A stretch of DNA of 64,000 nucleotides from contig NTJP01000010.1 of assembly GCA_002457145.1 (NCBI GenBank), forward strand, positions 1 through 64,000. The letters are read 5' to 3'. The stretch is from Marine Group II euryarchaeote MED-G38 (GTDB taxonomy: Archaea > Thermoplasmatota > Poseidoniia > Poseidoniales > Thalassarchaeaceae). Both the position numbers and the translations under genes were made by a program. The number at the start of each line of letters is the position of its first letter. Position 1 is the first letter of the stretch. The notes under the pieces were generated by a model. That model was given only the letters and a program-made list of their open reading frames with translations, made no database searches and had not been told where the DNA came from. Below, one piece after another: positions 52,191 through 64,000 of the stretch.

Positions 52191-53744
52191 TCATAGCGGT
52201 ATATTACCATGCTTTTTTTCAGGTCTAACCTCTTCCTTCTCTAATAGGGCACCTAATGCTTTTATTAACTTCAATCTTGTTTCTCTTGGTTGAATCACAT
52301 CATCTAAATATCCTAATGAGGCAGCCCGATAAGGATTGGCAAACGTATCGTTATAATCTTCAACTAATCTCTCTCTTTCTTGCTCTGGATTTCCTGATGA
52401 CTTTATTCTTTTTCTATGGATTATCTGTACCGCACCACTTGCGCCCATAACTGCAAGTTGAGCACTCGGCCAAGCAACATTATAATCTCCACGAATATGT
52501 TTCGAGGACATTACATCATATGCTCCTCCATATGCCTTCCTAGTTATCACGGTAAGTTTCGGTACAGTTGCTTCTGCATATGAGTAAAGTAATTTAGCCC
52601 CATGACGAATTATTCCTCCCCATTCCTGACTAGAACCCGGCAAAAAACCCGGTACATCGACAAATGTAATTAAAGGAATATTGAATGAATCACAAAATCT
52701 AACGAATCGAGCAGCCTTTATTGAAGCATCAATATCTAAACAGCCAGCTAAATATTTTGGTTGATTTCCAACTACGCCCACTGTATTGCCTCCTAATCTG
52801 CCATATCCAATAACTATATTTGGTGCAAACTCCGATTGAATTTCCAAAAATGCTCCATCATCCAAAACTTCTTCTATTACTTCATTAATATCATATGGTA
52901 AACTAGGGTCATTAGGTATTATCGTGTCTAGAATATTACACTCCCTATCAAGCGAATCCTTAGTATTCTTTGTGGGCGCTTTCTCTAAGTTGTTACTTGG
53001 TAAATAACCAACTAACTCTTGTACTAAATCTAATGCTTGTTGATCATTATCTGCCGTAAAATGGGTAACTCCTGATTTCCTAGCATGAGTACTTGCGCCT
53101 CCTAAATCTTCAAAAGTTACTTCTTCATTAGTTACAGTCTTTATCACTTCTGGACCAGTAATAAACATGTGCGCAGTCTTGTCAACCATTATTACAAAAT
53201 CGGTTATTGCAGGTGAATAAACAGCACCACCAGCACAAGGTCCCATAATTACAGAGATCTGAGGAATTACTCCACTTGCACGAACATTCCTAAAAAAAAT
53301 CTCCGCATAGGAACCTAGGCTAGCTACGCCTTCTTGAATTCTGGCTCCTCCACTATCATTCAAACCAATTACGGGGGCACCAGTTTTTATTGCCATATCT
53401 AATATTTTACATATTTTCAAACCATGCATTTCGCCTAACGAACCTCCGTAAACTGTAAAATCTTGAGCAAAACAATATACCAGTTTTCCATCAATTGTTC
53501 CATGTCCGCATATTACTCCGTCTCCTGGGATGATGTTTCTTTCCATATCAAAATCTTGACATCTATGTTCCACCAATGAGTCTACTTCCATGAAACTTTC
53601 AGGATCTAATAATAGCAATATTCTTTCCCTTGCAGTCATCTTACCTTTAGCATGTTGCGCCGCAACTTTTAGCTGACCTCCTCCTCCTTCTGATTGCGCT
53701 TTCCTCCGCCGAAGTTCTTCAGTCCGTTCATCTACTCGAGACAT
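52191..53744 (-). CDS. pccB: Acyl-CoA carboxylase carboxyltransferase subunit (propionyl-CoA carboxylase beta / MmdA family)
   Basis: [72 protein letters not shown]. Confidence 0.94.
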
Positions 53745-53857
53745 GTCTGAACGCTGATTGAGTAGGGACGCACATGAGCATTCCTACTAACTTTGTAAAA
53801 TTTTATCATCCTGCGGTTGTTTGAAAATAGAGTACGACCTCGCCGGATAAGATAGAG

Positions 53858-54295
53858 ATGCGTGTAGTCATAGCTAAACCTGGACTAGATGGACATGATA
53901 GAGGTGCGAAAGTAATAACTAGAGTTCTTAGGGACGGAGGTCACGAAGTGATATACACAGGTATTCGAAAGACTCCAGAACAAATTATTAATATCTTAAT
54001 TGATGAAGATGCAACTGCTTTGGGAATATCTTCCCTTTCTGGAGCTCACGAAGTACTGATACCAAAAATTTGCGATAAAATGAGAACTGTAGGATTATCT
54101 GACGTTGTGGTCTTTGCAGGAGGTATTATTCCTGAAAAGGACCATGAATCTTTGCATTCTTCAGGAGTAAGGGCAATATTTGGTCCTGGAACGCATTCAG
54201 AATCCATTATCAATTTTTTAATCGAAGTTTCTGAAAGACAAAAAAGAGGAGAACCAACAGGAGTTGGAGAAGATACTGGGTGGCATTGGGATTGA
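53858..54295 (+). CDS. Methylmalonyl-CoA mutase small subunit / B12-binding domain
   Basis: KPGLDGHDRGAKVITRVLRDGGHEVIYTG cobalamin-binding DxHxxG motif. Confidence 0.94.
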   Translation: MRVVIAKPGLDGHDRGAKVITRVLRDGGHEVIYTGIRKTPEQIINILIDEDATALGISSLSGAHEVLIPKICDKMRTVGLSDVVVFAGGIIPEKDHESLHSSGVRAIFGPGTHSESIINFLIEVSERQKRGEPTGVGEDTGWHWD

Positions 54296-55149
54296 CTACA
54301 AACTCTCATCAATTAGATCTAGCAATAAGTGGAGATAGGAGATGCTTAGCAAAAATACTTACAAAGATAGAATCTGGTTTTGTACCAATCATGGAAGTAC
54401 AGAATCCTTGGACACTAGGTGTTACTGGACCTCCTGGTGCAGGAAAATCAACCTTAATTGGTAATTTAATATCTGAATGGATAAAAAGAGGGGAAAAAGT
54501 AGCAGTTTTAGCGGTAGACCCTTCATCTCCAAAATCTGGCGGGGCACTTTTGGCTGATCGAATAAGAATGCAGGGCGAAGAATCTTCTAACTCTGTATTC
54601 ATAAGATCTATTGCCTCTCGAAATCATCCCGGAGGATTATCATTATTCATTGGCCATATGGTTAATGTTTTATGTGCTTGTGGATGGACAAGAATAATAA
54701 TCGAAACTGTAGGTTCAGGTCAGTCTCAAACTAGAATAGTTGCATTTGCAGATCGTATATTGCTAGTAGAAGGACCAGACAGAGGAGATATAATACAAGC
54801 TGAAAAAGCGGGTATTTTAGAATTAGCAGACATAGTTGTAGTTAATAAATCAGATATCAGTTCCTCAAAATTAGCATTCAACTCTTTAAATTCTTCATTA
54901 ACACTAAATCATGATTCCTCCATTAGCACTCATCTTGTTTCTGCTTTGAATGGGAACGGTGTTGAAAATTTACTTTCCTCTATAGAAGAATGCCCAAAAT
55001 CATCACAAAGAGAAATTATTAGACAGAGAGAAAGATTACTTTCAATTTGGGATTCTAGACTTCTGAATTATCCAGGGCTAAATCATATTCTCGAACAACT
55101 ATCTACCGGAAGTATAACACTTGAAGAGGCTGCGGATGAGATTGATTGA
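54280..55149 (+). CDS. meaB: Methylmalonyl-CoA mutase-associated GTPase MeaB/ArgK
   Basis: GVTGPPGAGKSTLI, VLAVDPSSPKSGGALLADRIRM, ETVGSGQSQTRI, VVNKSD. Confidence 0.92.
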   Translation: MALGLTTNSHQLDLAISGDRRCLAKILTKIESGFVPIMEVQNPWTLGVTGPPGAGKSTLIGNLISEWIKRGEKVAVLAVDPSSPKSGGALLADRIRMQGEESSNSVFIRSIASRNHPGGLSLFIGHMVNVLCACGWTRIIIETVGSGQSQTRIVAFADRILLVEGPDRGDIIQAEKAGILELADIVVVNKSDISSSKLAFNSLNSSLTLNHDSSISTHLVSALNGNGVENLLSSIEECPKSSQREIIRQRERLLSIWDSRLLNYPGLNHILEQLSTGSITLEEAADEID

Positions 55150-57909: not shown

Positions 57910-58416
57910 TTAATTAAAAATCTCAACGCCTTCATGTTCTAAAAGTAATTTTTTACCCATTTTTCCTCCGATTCCACTATATCTTCCTATGGAATTATCT
58001 TTTTTTATCACTCTATGGCAAGGAACAATTATCGGCCATGGATTTTTTGCCAATGCAGTACCAATTGCTCTAATTGCAGTCCTATTTCTTATTAAAAATG
58101 CTAATTCAGTATAACTAACTGTCTTTCCAAACTTTACATTTATCATTAATTCATATAATGTTTTTTTCTGAAATTCAGTCATATTTTGATAATCTAATTC
58201 AGGCCTTTTAATTTCAGAACCATTAAAATAAGAAATCAACCACCTTTCTGCTGAATCAAGATGTTTTTTTCCTATTGAGTTGTTTTCTATATTTTTTTTA
58301 GATGTAATTTTAATTATCCCAATTTCAGTAGATAGTACGTATAACTTACCAAGTGGCGTATGTATTTTTCTGACACCATTTTTTTCTAATTTAACTTTTT
58401 TATTATTCTTCAGCAT
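57910..58416 (-). CDS. ogt: Methylated-DNA-protein-cysteine methyltransferase
   Basis: RAIGTALAKNPWPIIVPCHRVIKKDNSIGRYSGIGGKMGKKLLLEHE. Confidence 0.93.
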   Translation of the reverse strand: MLKNNKKVKLEKNGVRKIHTPLGKLYVLSTEIGIIKITSKKNIENNSIGKKHLDSAERWLISYFNGSEIKRPELDYQNMTEFQKKTLYELMINVKFGKTVSYTELAFLIRNRTAIRAIGTALAKNPWPIIVPCHRVIKKDNSIGRYSGIGGKMGKKLLLEHEGVEIFN

Positions 58417-58699
58417 ATTTTTCCAGACTCTTATTATCTACTTCCATTCCTTTAATTTCATAATTTGAAGGGAATAATGCAATCACAACTCCTGCTACTA
58501 GAAATGTTAATCCAATCCCGAATGACTGTTGAACTACCATCAATTCTAATCCAATAGCAAATAATATCAATCCACCAACATTAGATACCCAGACTAGAGT
58601 TTTGAAGGTTGACAATGAAACTCCACTAGGATTTTCTACTCCTTTTGGGCCAAATTCTGCTCCAAATCTAAGTGGATTATCATCATTCATATATTTCAC
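58403..58699 (-). CDS. Small two-TM membrane protein
   Basis: 98 aa with two hydrophobic stretches; start overlaps the ferredoxin stop. Confidence 0.6.
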   Translation of the reverse strand: MKYMNDDNPLRFGAEFGPKGVENPSGVSLSTFKTLVWVSNVGGLILFAIGLELMVVQQSFGIGLTFLVAGVVIALFPSNYEIKGMEVDNKSLEKYAEE

Positions 58700-59085
58700 C
58701 TATCAATCATAACTATTGCATCAGTTGGACATGCTAATACACATAATTTACATCCCGTACATGGGTCTCTTAAAACTCTCGCCTTCTTATTATTATCAAC
58801 ATCCATTATGGGGCTTTTCATAGGCGTTTTATAAACTTCAATAGCATCATCATCACATACAATAGTACATTGATCACAACCTATGCATAAATCTTCCTTT
58901 ACCCATGCGACTGTTTCAAGACCACCTTTTATTTTCGCCCTTTCTTCAGAGCGCATAGCGTTTAACATCATCCTTATCCTTTTCTGTTCCATATTTCTTC
59001 TAGCGGCAAGGTCGCTTTGCTCAGTCATTAGGCGCCCACCATTAACCTCTTTGAGAAGGTCATCTTTTATAATCGTCAGTTTCAT
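58696..59085 (-). CDS. Ferredoxin-type protein with two 4Fe-4S clusters
   Basis: CIGCDQCTIVCDDDAI and CTGCKLCVLACPTDAI motifs. Confidence 0.9.
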   Translation of the reverse strand: MKLTIIKDDLLKEVNGGRLMTEQSDLAARRNMEQKRIRMMLNAMRSEERAKIKGGLETVAWVKEDLCIGCDQCTIVCDDDAIEVYKTPMKSPIMDVDNNKKARVLRDPCTGCKLCVLACPTDAIVMIDR

Positions 59086-59109: not shown

Positions 59110-59373
59110 ATGGAAGACCCTCCTTCTTTATGGTGGAAAGATCCTCTTTCTTTACTTGGACTACTCCAAGGAATATTAATTTGGTTGATAATGGTATATT
59201 TCTTAAATTTAGAAGTTGCATGGATTTCTTTTTCCTGTGGAGGTCTAATAGGTTTCTTTTTGTGGTTAACCGCATTAGGCTATCAAAAGCCGCTGATAGC
59301 TAAAATGACATTACTAGGGATTTTTTTTAATGCTATTCTTTCGTTATTTTCCGCGTATTTAGCTTTCAGTTAA
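59110..59373 (+). CDS. Small multi-TM membrane protein
   Basis: 87 aa, about three hydrophobic segments; opposite strand between hdr fusion and ferredoxin genes. Confidence 0.55.
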   Translation: MEDPPSLWWKDPLSLLGLLQGILIWLIMVYFLNLEVAWISFSCGGLIGFFLWLTALGYQKPLIAKMTLLGIFFNAILSLFSAYLAFS

Positions 59374-62153
59374 TTATTTTTCTTAGCATTTACTTGTCTA
59401 GCCAAGAAACTTACAACGTCTAATATTTCAAAGTCATGCCTAGGATCTCCTTCAAATTTTAAACATTCAAAATGACTAACACATTTAGGACAAGTTGTTA
59501 GCATTACATCTGCACCAGTAGCTTTTACTTCATCAAAACGCTGTAATCTCAAGCCTCTACTGTTCTCATTACACGACATCATACTGGATACACCACAACA
59601 TAATCCATCTTCTTTATTATGCTCCATCTCTACAAGGCTAACTCCATCTATGGACTGTACTAAATCTCTAGGCTCATCATAAATATTCATTTGTCTACCA
59701 ATTCTACAAGGGTCATGGTAAGTTACGGTGATATCTTCTTCTGTTTGTAATTGCATATCAAATCCCTTTTCAGTTAGGAACTCTGTGGTATGCATAACTT
59801 TCATGTCTTCTAACTCATAATCTAGCGCGAAAGTTCTAAAGCATTCAGCGCAAGAAGTGACTAAAGTATCTATCCCACTTTCACCTATTTTCTTTTGATT
59901 GTATGACTTCAATTTTTCAAAAACTTCTGTTAAACCTTGCCATTTTTGATCATGTCCACAACATTTCAAAAAATCTCTACCTAGGTATGTCACCTCTTGA
60001 TCTAATTCTTCAAACAGTGTGAAAGCAGCTGTTGTAGTTTCTCCAAGATTCATTGTTCCTTCATTAACATGACTGAAAATCATTTCTTGATCTATGTAGT
60101 CTACACAACCTGGATAATATCCAACATTAGAGTCAATTGGATAGTCACTAGTTGGAATAAATGCCTCATCTTCATCAGCTTCAGCGGCCAATACAGCCTG
60201 TAAAACAGTATGAGGTATCTCTGCAGCTGGAGGGCCGCCTACAATTAAATTTCTTCTGATATCTACATACGAGTCATAGTCTACTAATTGAGGACAAGCG
60301 TTTGTACAAGCACTACATGTTAAACAAGAATATAGTGGAACTCCATCATCTTCATTATTCCATGTATTATAAATAATATTTAATTTATCTCCTGCATTAA
60401 ATAATCTAACTGGACACGCATCATCACATAAATCGCATCCATAGCATTTATTCATTTCCCATTCGTAACCTCTTGCCATGCTACGCATTAACATGAAAAC
60501 CATCGCGCCTACTCCTAAACATGGAATGAAAAGTGAATATATCAATTTCGCATCTAAACTTTTGGGATTTTTGTGATATGTAGGATTTTTAATTGACATT
60601 TCACCCATTTCCTCAATAGTCATCGTGTTTCCTTCTCTAATTAATGCAGTACCATCATCATTCAACAAAAGCGGTTGATAGGACGTTGCAGAGAAATCTG
60701 TAATCATGGAAATAGATTCATTAATCCCACTTGATGTTGTAGTATAATACAAAATATACGTTGCCCCAGAATCCAAATAAATAGTTTCAGAAGTACATGT
60801 AATACCTTCCATGTTCCATATATTTTCTCCCAATGAGTTTTGTAATGACATTGTTTGACTATGAACTCCTAAACCATAAGTGGATGTTCTAAAATTACAT
60901 CCTATGTCAGTTGCTACACTACTCACTCCTAGATTTTCTACAGTAAAGGTTTTTGAGTCAGTAATCGTCTTTTCAATTCCATTTAAATTACCTGGGTATG
61001 TAAATTCAGATAATGCTGCATTTCTGCCTGTTTCAGGATCGGCATGCCCATTAACTCCGGCAAAATCAATTATATTGTATTTAGTTGGTTGATAAATTCC
61101 CCAATTAATCCAATTTGATGCTGTAATTACACACCATTCTCCATAGTCATCCTCTTCAATAGTATCCCATACACTCAATCCACTAGTTTCTGAATATGGC
61201 ATACAATCATCTTCCCATGCTTCCCATACATTTCCTTTACCATAGTGCACCAAAGTATCTTCAGGCTGCTCTCTCAATTCATCTAACTGTGAAACACTGT
61301 CCATAGCACCAAGGCCGCCATAGTTCCAAAAACCTCCTTCATAAATGGGCCATGTAGCTGTAGATATTAAAACTGTAATTATTAATGTACCAATTGTTAT
61401 TTGCTTTCCTATTCTGGGTGTAACACGTGCTCCCATTGTACTTAGTAAAAATTTTCTTATGACAAAGTAAAGTACTACAAATAAGAAAATTGCAGTAAGA
61501 ACCCAAGGTATAGAATTGAAGATGGTCGCAGTCCAAGGAGCCTGTCGGCCGCAAAAGAAATATTGATGCGAATCAACAAAACAATAATTCGTCAAATCCT
61601 TGGCATATAATTCTAAGAATATATTAATTGAGAAAACCGATATGAACCATACATGAGCCAAATAGGCGGCACCAGCGCTTGCAAACCATGGATCTTCTAC
61701 GCCTCTTTTCTCTCTCTTACCAATAATAAATGGAGGTAATGCTAGAATTCCGACAGGAATTCCAGTTATTGCTGCACCCCACCATGCTGCATTCCAATAA
61801 ATAAATGGTTGACCGAAGAAATCCCCAATAGGTCCTGCAGGTATTGTGTATTGAGGTAAATATTCTCCCCATCTCAAGTATCCATATGAGAATAAAACAT
61901 ACCAGTCAGGAAATACGAATCCTGCCTGAGCAAAAGGATCCGCAGCGCTGTGTAATGGAGGAGGTACTATCCAAGAATAAAAACATATAACCATAACCAT
62001 ACTTGCTAGAATTATTGTATCTCTTAGTACTTCAGTTGGCCAAAAAGAATGTCCTACAAAGACCCTTCTCCTTTCTTGTTCTGCCTCAATAAGAGTATCT
62101 CTTTCGCTAATGTATGTATCAGCAATCCTACCAAATCTATCTATTAATCCCAT
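59370..62153 (-). CDS. Cytochrome b C-terminal half fused to HdrD-like (2x4Fe-4S, 2xCCG) module
   Basis: FVFPDWYVLFSYGYLR (Qo PDWY motif) near N-terminus; CYGCDLCDDACP and CLTCSACTNACP; YPGC...KCCG...SCAEC and HDPC...LCCG...TCPKC CCG domains. Confidence 0.88.
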   Translation of the reverse strand: MGLIDRFGRIADTYISERDTLIEAEQERRRVFVGHSFWPTEVLRDTIILASMVMVICFYSWIVPPPLHSAADPFAQAGFVFPDWYVLFSYGYLRWGEYLPQYTIPAGPIGDFFGQPFIYWNAAWWGAAITGIPVGILALPPFIIGKREKRGVEDPWFASAGAAYLAHVWFISVFSINIFLELYAKDLTNYCFVDSHQYFFCGRQAPWTATIFNSIPWVLTAIFLFVVLYFVIRKFLLSTMGARVTPRIGKQITIGTLIITVLISTATWPIYEGGFWNYGGLGAMDSVSQLDELREQPEDTLVHYGKGNVWEAWEDDCMPYSETSGLSVWDTIEEDDYGEWCVITASNWINWGIYQPTKYNIIDFAGVNGHADPETGRNAALSEFTYPGNLNGIEKTITDSKTFTVENLGVSSVATDIGCNFRTSTYGLGVHSQTMSLQNSLGENIWNMEGITCTSETIYLDSGATYILYYTTTSSGINESISMITDFSATSYQPLLLNDDGTALIREGNTMTIEEMGEMSIKNPTYHKNPKSLDAKLIYSLFIPCLGVGAMVFMLMRSMARGYEWEMNKCYGCDLCDDACPVRLFNAGDKLNIIYNTWNNEDDGVPLYSCLTCSACTNACPQLVDYDSYVDIRRNLIVGGPPAAEIPHTVLQAVLAAEADEDEAFIPTSDYPIDSNVGYYPGCVDYIDQEMIFSHVNEGTMNLGETTTAAFTLFEELDQEVTYLGRDFLKCCGHDQKWQGLTEVFEKLKSYNQKKIGESGIDTLVTSCAECFRTFALDYELEDMKVMHTTEFLTEKGFDMQLQTEEDITVTYHDPCRIGRQMNIYDEPRDLVQSIDGVSLVEMEHNKEDGLCCGVSSMMSCNENSRGLRLQRFDEVKATGADVMLTTCPKCVSHFECLKFEGDPRHDFEILDVVSFLARQVNAKKNN

Positions 62154-62165
62154 ATTATGACCTCC

Positions 62166-63032
62166 TTAATGTGGCTCAGCGATACCTTGCACCCAAACAA
62201 TGAATAAATGAATAAGAATGAGGGTGGTAACTAGTACAGGTAATATAAAAACATGTAAGAAATACATTCTTGTTACTGTTTGGCCCGAAAGTGTAGTACC
62301 GGCAAATAGTGCATTTGCCATCCAATCTCCTATCAAGGGTGTTGCCGTTGCCATATTTATTCCAATAGTTGCCGCTCCAAACGCTAGACTATCCCAAGGT
62401 AGGAGGTATCCTGAATATCCGAAGAAAATTACGAAAAACATCAACGCAACTCCAATTAGCCAATTTAATTCTCTTGGGTTTCGGTATGCACCAGTGAAGT
62501 AGACTCTACACATATGCAAGAAGACAGCGGCAACCATGAAATGAGTAGTCCAATGGTGAATAGATCTAATGATATATCCAAAAGGCAAGGTAGTCATTAT
62601 GAATTCCATACTGCTGTATGCAGGAGTAGGATCTCCTTCTCCTCCTGGGACATAATATAGGCCGAGAATACTTCCAGTAATAACCAGAATTATAAATGCC
62701 AAGAATGAAATCCCTCCTAAGCAATATAATGGATACCAATACCATATTATCCTTAGCTTATATTTTTCAGCATGAGTTAAAGGCATTTGCCTGTGTACAC
62801 TATGAAATGCATCTCTACTCATACCCCAGTAATCTTGTATTCTAAATCTAGTATCTAGCCAAGAGAATGCCCATAAGAATATTTTCTCGGAAAATCCCAT
62901 TTCACTAGCATTTGACTCAACAGCTCTGAGAATATCTTTCCTAGGCATATCATCTCTTTCTTTTCGTAGTGTAAAAGCTACTATTACAACAACTAATGCT
63001 ATAAATAACCATAAAAACCAGAATTGAATCAT
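62166..63032 (-). CDS. b6-type cytochrome b, N-terminal half
   Basis: YCLGGISFLAF, RSIHHWTTHFMVAAVFLHMCRVYFTGAYRNPRELNWLIGV, GYSGYLLPWDSLAF, MYFLHVFILPVLVTTLILIH; four His ligands with 14/15 spacing. Confidence 0.93.
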   Translation of the reverse strand: MIQFWFLWLFIALVVVIVAFTLRKERDDMPRKDILRAVESNASEMGFSEKIFLWAFSWLDTRFRIQDYWGMSRDAFHSVHRQMPLTHAEKYKLRIIWYWYPLYCLGGISFLAFIILVITGSILGLYYVPGGEGDPTPAYSSMEFIMTTLPFGYIIRSIHHWTTHFMVAAVFLHMCRVYFTGAYRNPRELNWLIGVALMFFVIFFGYSGYLLPWDSLAFGAATIGINMATATPLIGDWMANALFAGTTLSGQTVTRMYFLHVFILPVLVTTLILIHLFIVWVQGIAEPH

Positions 63033-63041
63033 CTTATCACC

Positions 63042-63887
63042 TTATCCACAATATGCATACCAATCTTTGAAGTCTGGTAACGCCTCTATAATATCACCAT
63101 TTACTGTAAATGGTATCAAAGGCATCCCATTAGGAGCTGGACCTCCAGTTTTTCTTACCCCTATGAATTCAAACGGCACTCCTTTTCCCATGCTATTCTT
63201 TTCGATAGCAGTTGGATCAAATCTACTAGAATGACATATGCAAAAAAGTTTGTCTCCTCCTTCATCTGTTCCTCCTGCAGCCCAAGTATCTCCGGTGTAA
63301 TTATTAGTTACTAATTGCCAACCTGGGATACAACAAAGATGTGGACATCTTGAGAAAATTATAACCATATTGTCATGTATGGACAATGAGCTATATGCTG
63401 CATCATCTTCAACTTCTCTTCCAGAGCCCACATATTTGCCTCCGAGATCATAACCATCTAGATATTGAAATCTAGGTTTATCTGATTGTAGAGGTAGATC
63501 TTTGTTCTCTTCATGAGGTACATATACAACATTTACAGGCATCCCGGACCATACTCCTTGAGCTCCTATCATGCCAGTTTTTGTGTTGGCTGCAGCTACT
63601 TGGAATGAACTGTAACTCATTGGTTCTAAATGTTTGTCTCCAAACCATGCGGTATCTTCTGCTCCTGAAGGAACCCAAAATCTTACAGCACTATCTCCAC
63701 CATCTGCTTCAGGTTGGCCCATGAGTAAAGCCGCAAAACCTACACTACCCAAACTTGCCACAGTGATTAGTCCCGCTGCAGTATTGAATGATAATCGCAT
63801 AAACTCCCGTCTATCAATCATTTTTACCGATTCAACAGAATCATTGGATTCTGACGGTATCGGACGTAATTTAAATCTTCTAGCCAT
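63042..63887 (-). CDS. Rieske 2Fe-2S protein with Tat-like signal
   Basis: DRREFMRLSFNTAAG twin-Arg segment; cluster motifs CPHLCC and CICHSSRFD. Confidence 0.92.
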   Translation of the reverse strand: MARRFKLRPIPSESNDSVESVKMIDRREFMRLSFNTAAGLITVASLGSVGFAALLMGQPEADGGDSAVRFWVPSGAEDTAWFGDKHLEPMSYSSFQVAAANTKTGMIGAQGVWSGMPVNVVYVPHEENKDLPLQSDKPRFQYLDGYDLGGKYVGSGREVEDDAAYSSLSIHDNMVIIFSRCPHLCCIPGWQLVTNNYTGDTWAAGGTDEGGDKLFCICHSSRFDPTAIEKNSMGKGVPFEFIGVRKTGGPAPNGMPLIPFTVNGDIIEALPDFKDWYAYCG

Positions 63888-63889
63888 GT

Positions 63890-64000
63890 CTATGCCTCAT
63901 ATTTTTTCCAAGCTTCAGTATCATTCTTTGTTATATATTTGTTTCTTCTGTGCTTTACAACAACGACATCAGGCATTACATATTTTAGGTATATGATGCC
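63890..64000 (-). CDS. C-terminal fragment of a protein upstream of the Rieske gene (partial)
   Basis: Open minus frame to stop at 63890: ...GIIYLKYVMPDVVVKHRRNKYITKNDTEAWKKYEA*. Confidence 0.5.
   Translation of the reverse strand, partial: GIIYLKYVMPDVVVVKHRRNKYITKNDTEAWKKYEA

Follow-up and report, generated by a model that had tools for sequence, protein, structure and literature searches.

The closest published precedent that we found for a cytochrome b6-type complex with a redox module on its cytoplasmic side is the anammox complexes of Kuenenia (Kuste4569-4574 and Kustd1480-1485), in which the module is an NAD(P) oxidoreductase and for which electron bifurcation has been proposed (PMC12954380). 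In HdrDE and EtfD/FadF, a Fer4-Fer4-CCG-CCG module is paired with a membrane protein that has b haem and handles quinone or methanophenazine (PMC13083937, PMC9478090), and the haloarchaeal petABD complex is a b6-f-like archaeal complex III (PMC8305020). Marine Group II (MGII) archaea rank among the most abundant archaea of the surface ocean and none has been isolated; descriptions of their complex III have so far gone no further than calling it atypical: the available passages of Tully 2019 report cytochrome b and Rieske genes without a canonical bc1, an orphan RnfB, and an MGII-specific complex III (PMC6336850). Here we describe a 64,000-nucleotide stretch (the window, positions 1 to 64,000 of NTJP01000010.1, our contig C2) of the 1.37 Mb genome of the MGII euryarchaeote MED-G38, in which the C-terminal half of a b6-type cytochrome b runs on, in one reading frame, into a HdrD-like iron-sulfur module.

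The locus resembles cytochrome b6f and other b6-type complexes in its split cytochrome b, four haem-ligand histidines, YCLGG cysteine, subunit-IV-like C-half, Rieske boxes and PDWY motif. It differs from b6f in the continuation of the C-half into the HdrD module, and in that cytochrome f or c1 is not recognisable, while a choice-of-anchor-V subunit with an invariant GCxCH is present. The arrangement of a b6-type core and a cytoplasmic-side module is shared with the Kuenenia complexes, but there the module is a FAD/NAD(P) oxidoreductase with multihaem cytochrome c partners; no NAD(P) oxidoreductase domain was found in the MGII fusion, its operon or the adjoining genes examined. HdrDE and EtfD/FadF have the homologous module, but they use a NarI-type five-helix cytochrome and have no Q cycle, whereas the MGII partner is a Rieske/cytochrome b complex. 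The module has no HdrE-type (NarI-type) partner but is attached to the cytochrome b C-half instead, and the N-terminal NarI-type five-helix domain of the EtfD/FadF layout is not present in the fusion; HdrD modules gain a second kind of cytochrome partner besides the NarI type. The likeness to haloarchaeal petABD covers the complex III genes and the small subunits, which are weakly similar (DUF7318/DUF7322; PMC8305020).

The complex III genes of Tully 2019 are very probably those described here, and the available passages of that paper make no mention of an HdrD part or of heterodisulfide (PMC6336850). A description of an HdrD-cytochrome b fusion was not found in the openly accessible literature, subscription literature lying mostly outside the reach of the search. 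A preliminary description of this DNA, made from its letters, knew of no characterised complex of this architecture; as far as the openly readable literature goes, that stands for the HdrD fusion, but the anammox b6-type complexes are a close conceptual precedent (PMC12954380). What is new is a b6-type Rieske/cytochrome b complex bearing a cytosolic HdrD-type redox module, which gives MGII complex III a concrete anatomy and suggests a built-in electron link, apparently previously undescribed, that joins the respiratory chain to the inside of the cell.

The fused gene and its cytochrome b partners

Three minus-strand genes occupy positions 59370-63887 in the order Rieske (63042..63887), cytochrome b N-half (62166..63032) and fusion (59370..62153), separated by gaps of 9 and 12 bases. 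The fusion is a single open reading frame (ORF) of 927 amino acids with no internal stop, a Shine-Dalgarno-like aggaggt preceding its ATG. Its product starts with a cytochrome b C-half, goes on with an extracytoplasmic insert specific to Poseidoniales and a last helix, and ends in a complete HdrD-like module.

The C-half, similar to b6f subunit IV, comprises residues 1-270 (61344..62153, minus strand), with about five transmembrane helices predicted from hydropathy. In the window sequence this part matched no Pfam family. However, a profile built from 16 homologues matched the C-halves of cytochrome b proteins of solved structure (E 6.6e-12) as well as b6f subunit IV (2e74_B; E 6.2e-9), PF00032 (Cytochrom_B_C) was matched at E <= 0.1 by 9 of the 16 homologues (best 9.7e-11), and the 789 amino acid fusion of family f22 scores above the PF00032 cut-off and also contains CCG and Fer4 in the same protein. 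By profile comparison, then, the N-terminal part of the fusion is a cytochrome b C-half. The Qo motif PDWY (residues 82-85; 61899-61910, minus strand) recurs in each of the 168 C-half ORFs examined, whether fused or not; it is given as typical of low-potential (menaquinone-type) chains in a passage of PMC6349771 citing Kao and Hunte.

The N-half matches PF00033 (E 8e-42) and has all four haem ligands conserved (His159/173/260/275). Its Cys104 (codon 62721..62723, minus strand), in the motif YCLGG, aligns to cytochrome b6 Cys35, the haem ci/cn anchor, and the complex is assigned on these residues as b6-type with a haem ci anchor cysteine. The Rieske protein has a twin-arginine-like N-terminus and conserved ligand boxes (CPHLCC and CICHSS), and matches TIGR01416 below the model cut-off (E 3.7e-8).

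The HdrD-like module

Pfam detected two CCG domains (E 1.1e-21) and a 4Fe-4S dicluster (E 2e-7) in the window fusion, and the ligand set is complete, with eight cysteines for two 4Fe-4S sites and ten in two CCG motifs. All coordinates are on the minus strand: the dicluster region spans residues 566-624 (60282..60458), with Cys 570/573/576/580 and 610/613/616/620 invariant; CCG motif 1, of the Hdr type with an extra cysteine, spans residues 683-771 (59841..60107; Cys 683, 731, 732, 768 and 771); and CCG motif 2 spans residues 810-895 (59469..59726; Cys 816, 852, 853, 888 and 891). Every cluster pattern was matched by regular expression in 115 of 117 full-length fusions, one of the others having Ser in CCG1 and one lacking the CCG2 pattern, and motif spacings were identical across the 116 fusions measured. 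Judged by its motifs, the fusion ends in an HdrD-like module that is complete. The preliminary description had placed the gene trio and the PDWY codons exactly where they are found, and its unbroken 927 amino acid frame and two 4Fe-4S and two CCG motifs are confirmed. Its b6-type assignment is borne out by the PF00033 match, the YCLGG cysteine and the Rieske boxes, and the fused C-half that it proposed by the profile match; the domain search that it suggested found CCG and Fer4 directly and Cytochrom_B_C, missed in the window sequence, through homologues and profile.

The solved structure that best matches the module is EtfD (9ojn; E 3.8e-21) and the genome has etfAB, so an EtfD-like role, the module taking electrons from ETF, had to be considered. 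We regard it as very improbable: a protein of EtfD-like NarI-HdrD type (C1:91648) is already present in this genome and in nearly all relatives, the CCG1 cysteine pair is CC in the fusion versus CS in that paralogue (CCGHD in the fusion, CSGDP in EtfD), and the tree described below places the fusion module apart from EtfD-like proteins. On these three grounds, orthology of the module to EtfD was rejected. Where the extra CCG1 cysteine is absent, the EtfD structure has a linear 3Fe-4S cluster (PMC13083937). The separate protein, of 668 amino acids and EtfD/FadF layout, is at G000:C1:91648-92508 (L002, L209).

The module could instead belong to a thiol/disulfide enzyme, its CCG site oxidising a cytosolic dithiol, or reducing its disulfide, in the manner of HdrDE with cytochrome b replacing HdrE. 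Both CCG motifs are complete and share the CCGHD and HDP signatures with unfused HdrD-like proteins, the closest NCBIfam model is TfrB (thiol-linked fumarate reductase subunit), although below cut-off, and Foldseek matches to HdrB were obtained. Nevertheless, this is unlikely. Coenzyme M/coenzyme B biology is not to be expected of an aerobic heterotroph, no thiol gene was seen in the gene context, and sequence similarity to HdrD beyond the module's own clade is only ~30-36%.

Insert and topology

The insert (residues ~271-536, ~265 amino acids; 60546..61343, minus strand) is a predicted beta-sandwich, modelled by AlphaFold with a predicted local distance difference test (pLDDT) of 80-93 across residues about 370-520. 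Its sequence is weakly conserved; in the phylum sample it was restricted to Poseidoniales, and it is missing from the fusions of other Thermoplasmatota families. From hydropathy and Lys/Arg distribution, the last transmembrane helix (residues 537-555; 60489..60545, minus strand) is predicted to return the chain to the cytosolic side, so that the N-terminus and the HdrD module would be cytosolic and PDWY and the insert outside, a topology consistent with the positive-inside rule. Foldseek matches of the fusion model were to EtfD, HdrB and generic beta-sandwich folds.

Other outer domains were seen in related complexes. The cytochrome b N-half ORFs of f22 and f25 begin with Ig-like Big_5 domains (L151:7086-8975 and L165:788-3613), and the C-half of f21 (L157) has a laminin-G-like domain after it. 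It seems that the Thermoplasmatota cytochrome b complex exchanges its outer domains freely.

Conservation, distribution and phylogeny

The survey covered 59 relatives from 18 genera in two MGII/Poseidoniales families, intact frames being tallied from the resulting table. The fusion is a single open frame in 52 of them, whereas six copies are truncated at contig ends and one is frame-split. Five loci from assemblies with single-cell-type names (AG-/AH-) are intact. This conservation goes beyond anything claimed in advance. The split copy (L111; G017:C26:657-3433) is the sole one of its kind, and as other species of the same genus are intact, it is likely a sequencing error. It is the one observation that could favour an assembly artefact, missed stop or chance join; to that explanation we give practically no credence, as the fusion or a near equivalent occurs in hundreds of independent genomes, in a genome made up of one contig, in assemblies of the single-cell type and in three further families. 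Assembly error was rejected on this conservation across relatives.

One scan of genome contigs reached beyond Thermoplasmatota, and the 80 loci kept were labelled Poseidoniales, generic Euryarchaeota or, in one case, bacterial. The last (L081, PAQG01000017.1), titled as an Acidimicrobiaceae bacterium, carries the archaeal locus at 75% identity and is probably a mis-binned contig.

In the phylum sample, HdrD carriers outside Poseidoniales are f22 (the 789 amino acid fusion), f25 (a 606 amino acid fusion) and f3, which resembles Marine Group III (MGIII) and in which only the Fer4 part is joined to the C-half, the CCG part being a separate gene that comes next; reading frames are less clear at one f3 locus (L163). 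C-halves without HdrD occur in f4, f15, f21, f23, f31, f32 and f39. The cytochrome-b-attached HdrD modules form one clade with 100/100 support against the 21 other HdrD/EtfD sequences sampled, some branches being long. A tree of cytochrome b N-halves also brings these carriers together, but its support values are weak (81/23 and 80/84). The distribution shows the fusion to be order-wide in Poseidoniales and older than the order.

The position equivalent to Cys35 is Cys in 146 classed fused loci, Ser in four (MGIII genus g21) and a gap in one, whereas in HdrD-less relatives outside Poseidoniales it is Thr, Ser or Ala, except in f31, where it is Cys. Where Cys otherwise occurs and HdrD was not detected, the loci are from Poseidoniales, and at least some of these are truncated by contig ends.

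The tail of HdrD-less C-halves, for example GYEFNLNRTYYKVR, resembles the fusion junction, GYEWEMNKCYGC, but is unlike the beginnings of unfused HdrD proteins; the module thus lies exactly at the cytosolic C-terminus of cytochrome b. The tail may be what is left of a lost HdrD, or it may be the original end of cytochrome b. It is conserved in HdrD-less L152, L154-L156, L158, L164 and L166, and the likeness to the junction runs up to the first cluster cysteine.

Ferredoxin and gene context

A ferredoxin gene adjoins the operon in 73 of 74 long Poseidoniales loci. In the MGIII-like operons it follows the CCG gene, and in f22 it starts at the stop codon of the fusion. No ferredoxin match was found near the HdrD-less complexes examined, some of which have a protein like the 98 amino acid membrane protein described below. 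The ORF after the f25 fusion, cut at the contig end, resembles the N-terminus of HdrA and has a Fer4 motif; in Poseidoniales no HdrA was found, matches being to short ferredoxin or nucleotide-binding stretches only. This gene context (ferredoxin, HdrA-like ORF) points to a ferredoxin or flavoprotein as the partner of the module.

All seven Poseidoniales genomes sampled have 2-oxoacid:ferredoxin oxidoreductase homologues and a haem-copper oxidase. NuoF (PF01512) was found in one and not in the other six, including the one-contig genome G036; with the oxoacid:ferredoxin oxidoreductases, this makes it plausible that reduced ferredoxin needs a route to quinone. The available text of Tully 2019 speaks of canonical NADH dehydrogenases in MGII (PMC6336850). 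Poseidoniales complex I may use another donor.

The orphan RnfB in the available passages of Tully 2019 may be the operon-adjoining ferredoxin. As a unique marker it was rejected, because each genome has several RnfB-like ferredoxins, all of them below cut-off in Poseidoniales.

Proposed electron path

We prefer, at a probability of roughly 45%, the reading in which this complex III, of b6 type, bears an electron port that is hard-wired on its cytosolic side and links a ferredoxin or flavoprotein to haem ci/Qn. The fusion protein would complete the Qo site on the outer side, its chain would recross the membrane, and its end, where two cubane clusters and two of the CCG type form an HdrD-like wire, would lie beside haem ci and Qn on the cytosolic side. 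Electrons from a cytosolic carrier, likeliest the neighbouring ferredoxin or, in f25, the HdrA-like flavoprotein, would enter via the CCG/Fer4 clusters and reach haem ci and then Qn, where quinone would be reduced; meanwhile, Qo would oxidise quinol and pass electrons through the Rieske protein to the oxidase. Complex III would thereby have ferredoxin:quinone reductase activity built in, as has been proposed for b6f during cyclic electron flow. In favour of the port count the haem-ci cysteine of nearly all HdrD carriers, the conserved cluster cysteines, the single clade of attached modules and the ferredoxin or HdrA-like neighbours. The homologous EtfD structure shows that clusters in such a chain are able to connect a donor in the cytosol with haem and quinone (PMC13083937). 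The ligands, topology, operon and ferredoxin co-occurrence are read from the sequence, and it is by inference that we arrive at the cluster order, donor, direction and link to Qn. A long-standing question, namely whether a soluble carrier can trade electrons with haem ci/Qn on the cytosolic face of a b6-type complex, becomes testable with this natural fusion.

Several observations weigh against the electron port, whose substrate and direction are proposals drawn from sequence. CCG modules that have the extra cysteine typically carry out disulfide chemistry. Ferredoxins are widespread, a neighbouring gene does not prove that the proteins react, and G036, a one-contig genome, has no ferredoxin beside the operon. 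Genus g21 carries the module, yet Ser replaces its haem-ci cysteine, whereas f31 has that cysteine with no HdrD nearby. Lastly, AlphaFold modelled the whole fusion with a mean pLDDT of 60 and with low confidence in the membrane and dicluster regions.

The main rival, which we consider doubtful, has the same anatomy but exports electrons by bifurcation at Qo: one electron of quinol would go to Rieske and oxygen, and the other via the b haems, haem ci and HdrD to a cytosolic disulfide or ferredoxin. Precedent is the bifurcation proposed for the anammox b6-type complexes with their cytoplasmic-side NAD(P) oxidoreductase (PMC12954380), and reduction of a disulfide should need less driving force than that of NAD(P). 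The extra CCG1 cysteine is also as in Hdr and absent from EtfD. However, the conserved haem-ci-type Qn region suggests ordinary Qn turnover. That a bifurcating complex III feeds ferredoxin or disulfide, in which case the respiratory chain of dominant marine archaea would drive the supply of low-potential reductant, seems rather unlikely. Coupling of the Q cycle to a cytosolic reaction, put forward in the preliminary description, is the natural reading of the locus, but no sign was seen of the thiol/disulfide substrate or of the bifurcation suggested with it.

Operon and neighbouring genes

Two further genes, overlapping by four bases, precede the Rieske gene, and they, like the insert (~265 amino acids) and the adjoining ferredoxin gene, were absent from the earlier account. 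The first operon gene, outside the window (L022:2337-3155), encodes the 272 amino acid choice-of-anchor-V protein (NF041895, E 5e-22), which has a C-terminal transmembrane helix and the invariant GCxCH (CxCH, not CxxCH). No CxxCH subunit was found among the operon genes, and this protein is possibly a cytochrome f/c1 stand-in. The second encodes a 149 amino acid membrane protein (weak DUF7318, below cut-off), of which only the 3' end (63890..64000, minus strand) is within the window, the rest lying past its edge (L022:1891-2340). The five-gene operon is complete and on one strand in all 74 long Poseidoniales loci.

Adjoining the operon on the minus strand is the gene for the 129 amino acid ferredoxin (58696..59085), which has two 4Fe-4S sites and is RnfB-like, below cut-off, and then that for a 98 amino acid small membrane protein (58403..58699), which is conserved beside the operon and has homologues also by HdrD-less complexes. 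Elsewhere in the window (52191-55149), genes read by sequence as a carboxyl transferase subunit, a B12-binding mutase subunit and a MeaB-like GTPase lie side by side, and this cluster is kept near the operon in most Thalassarchaeaceae loci.

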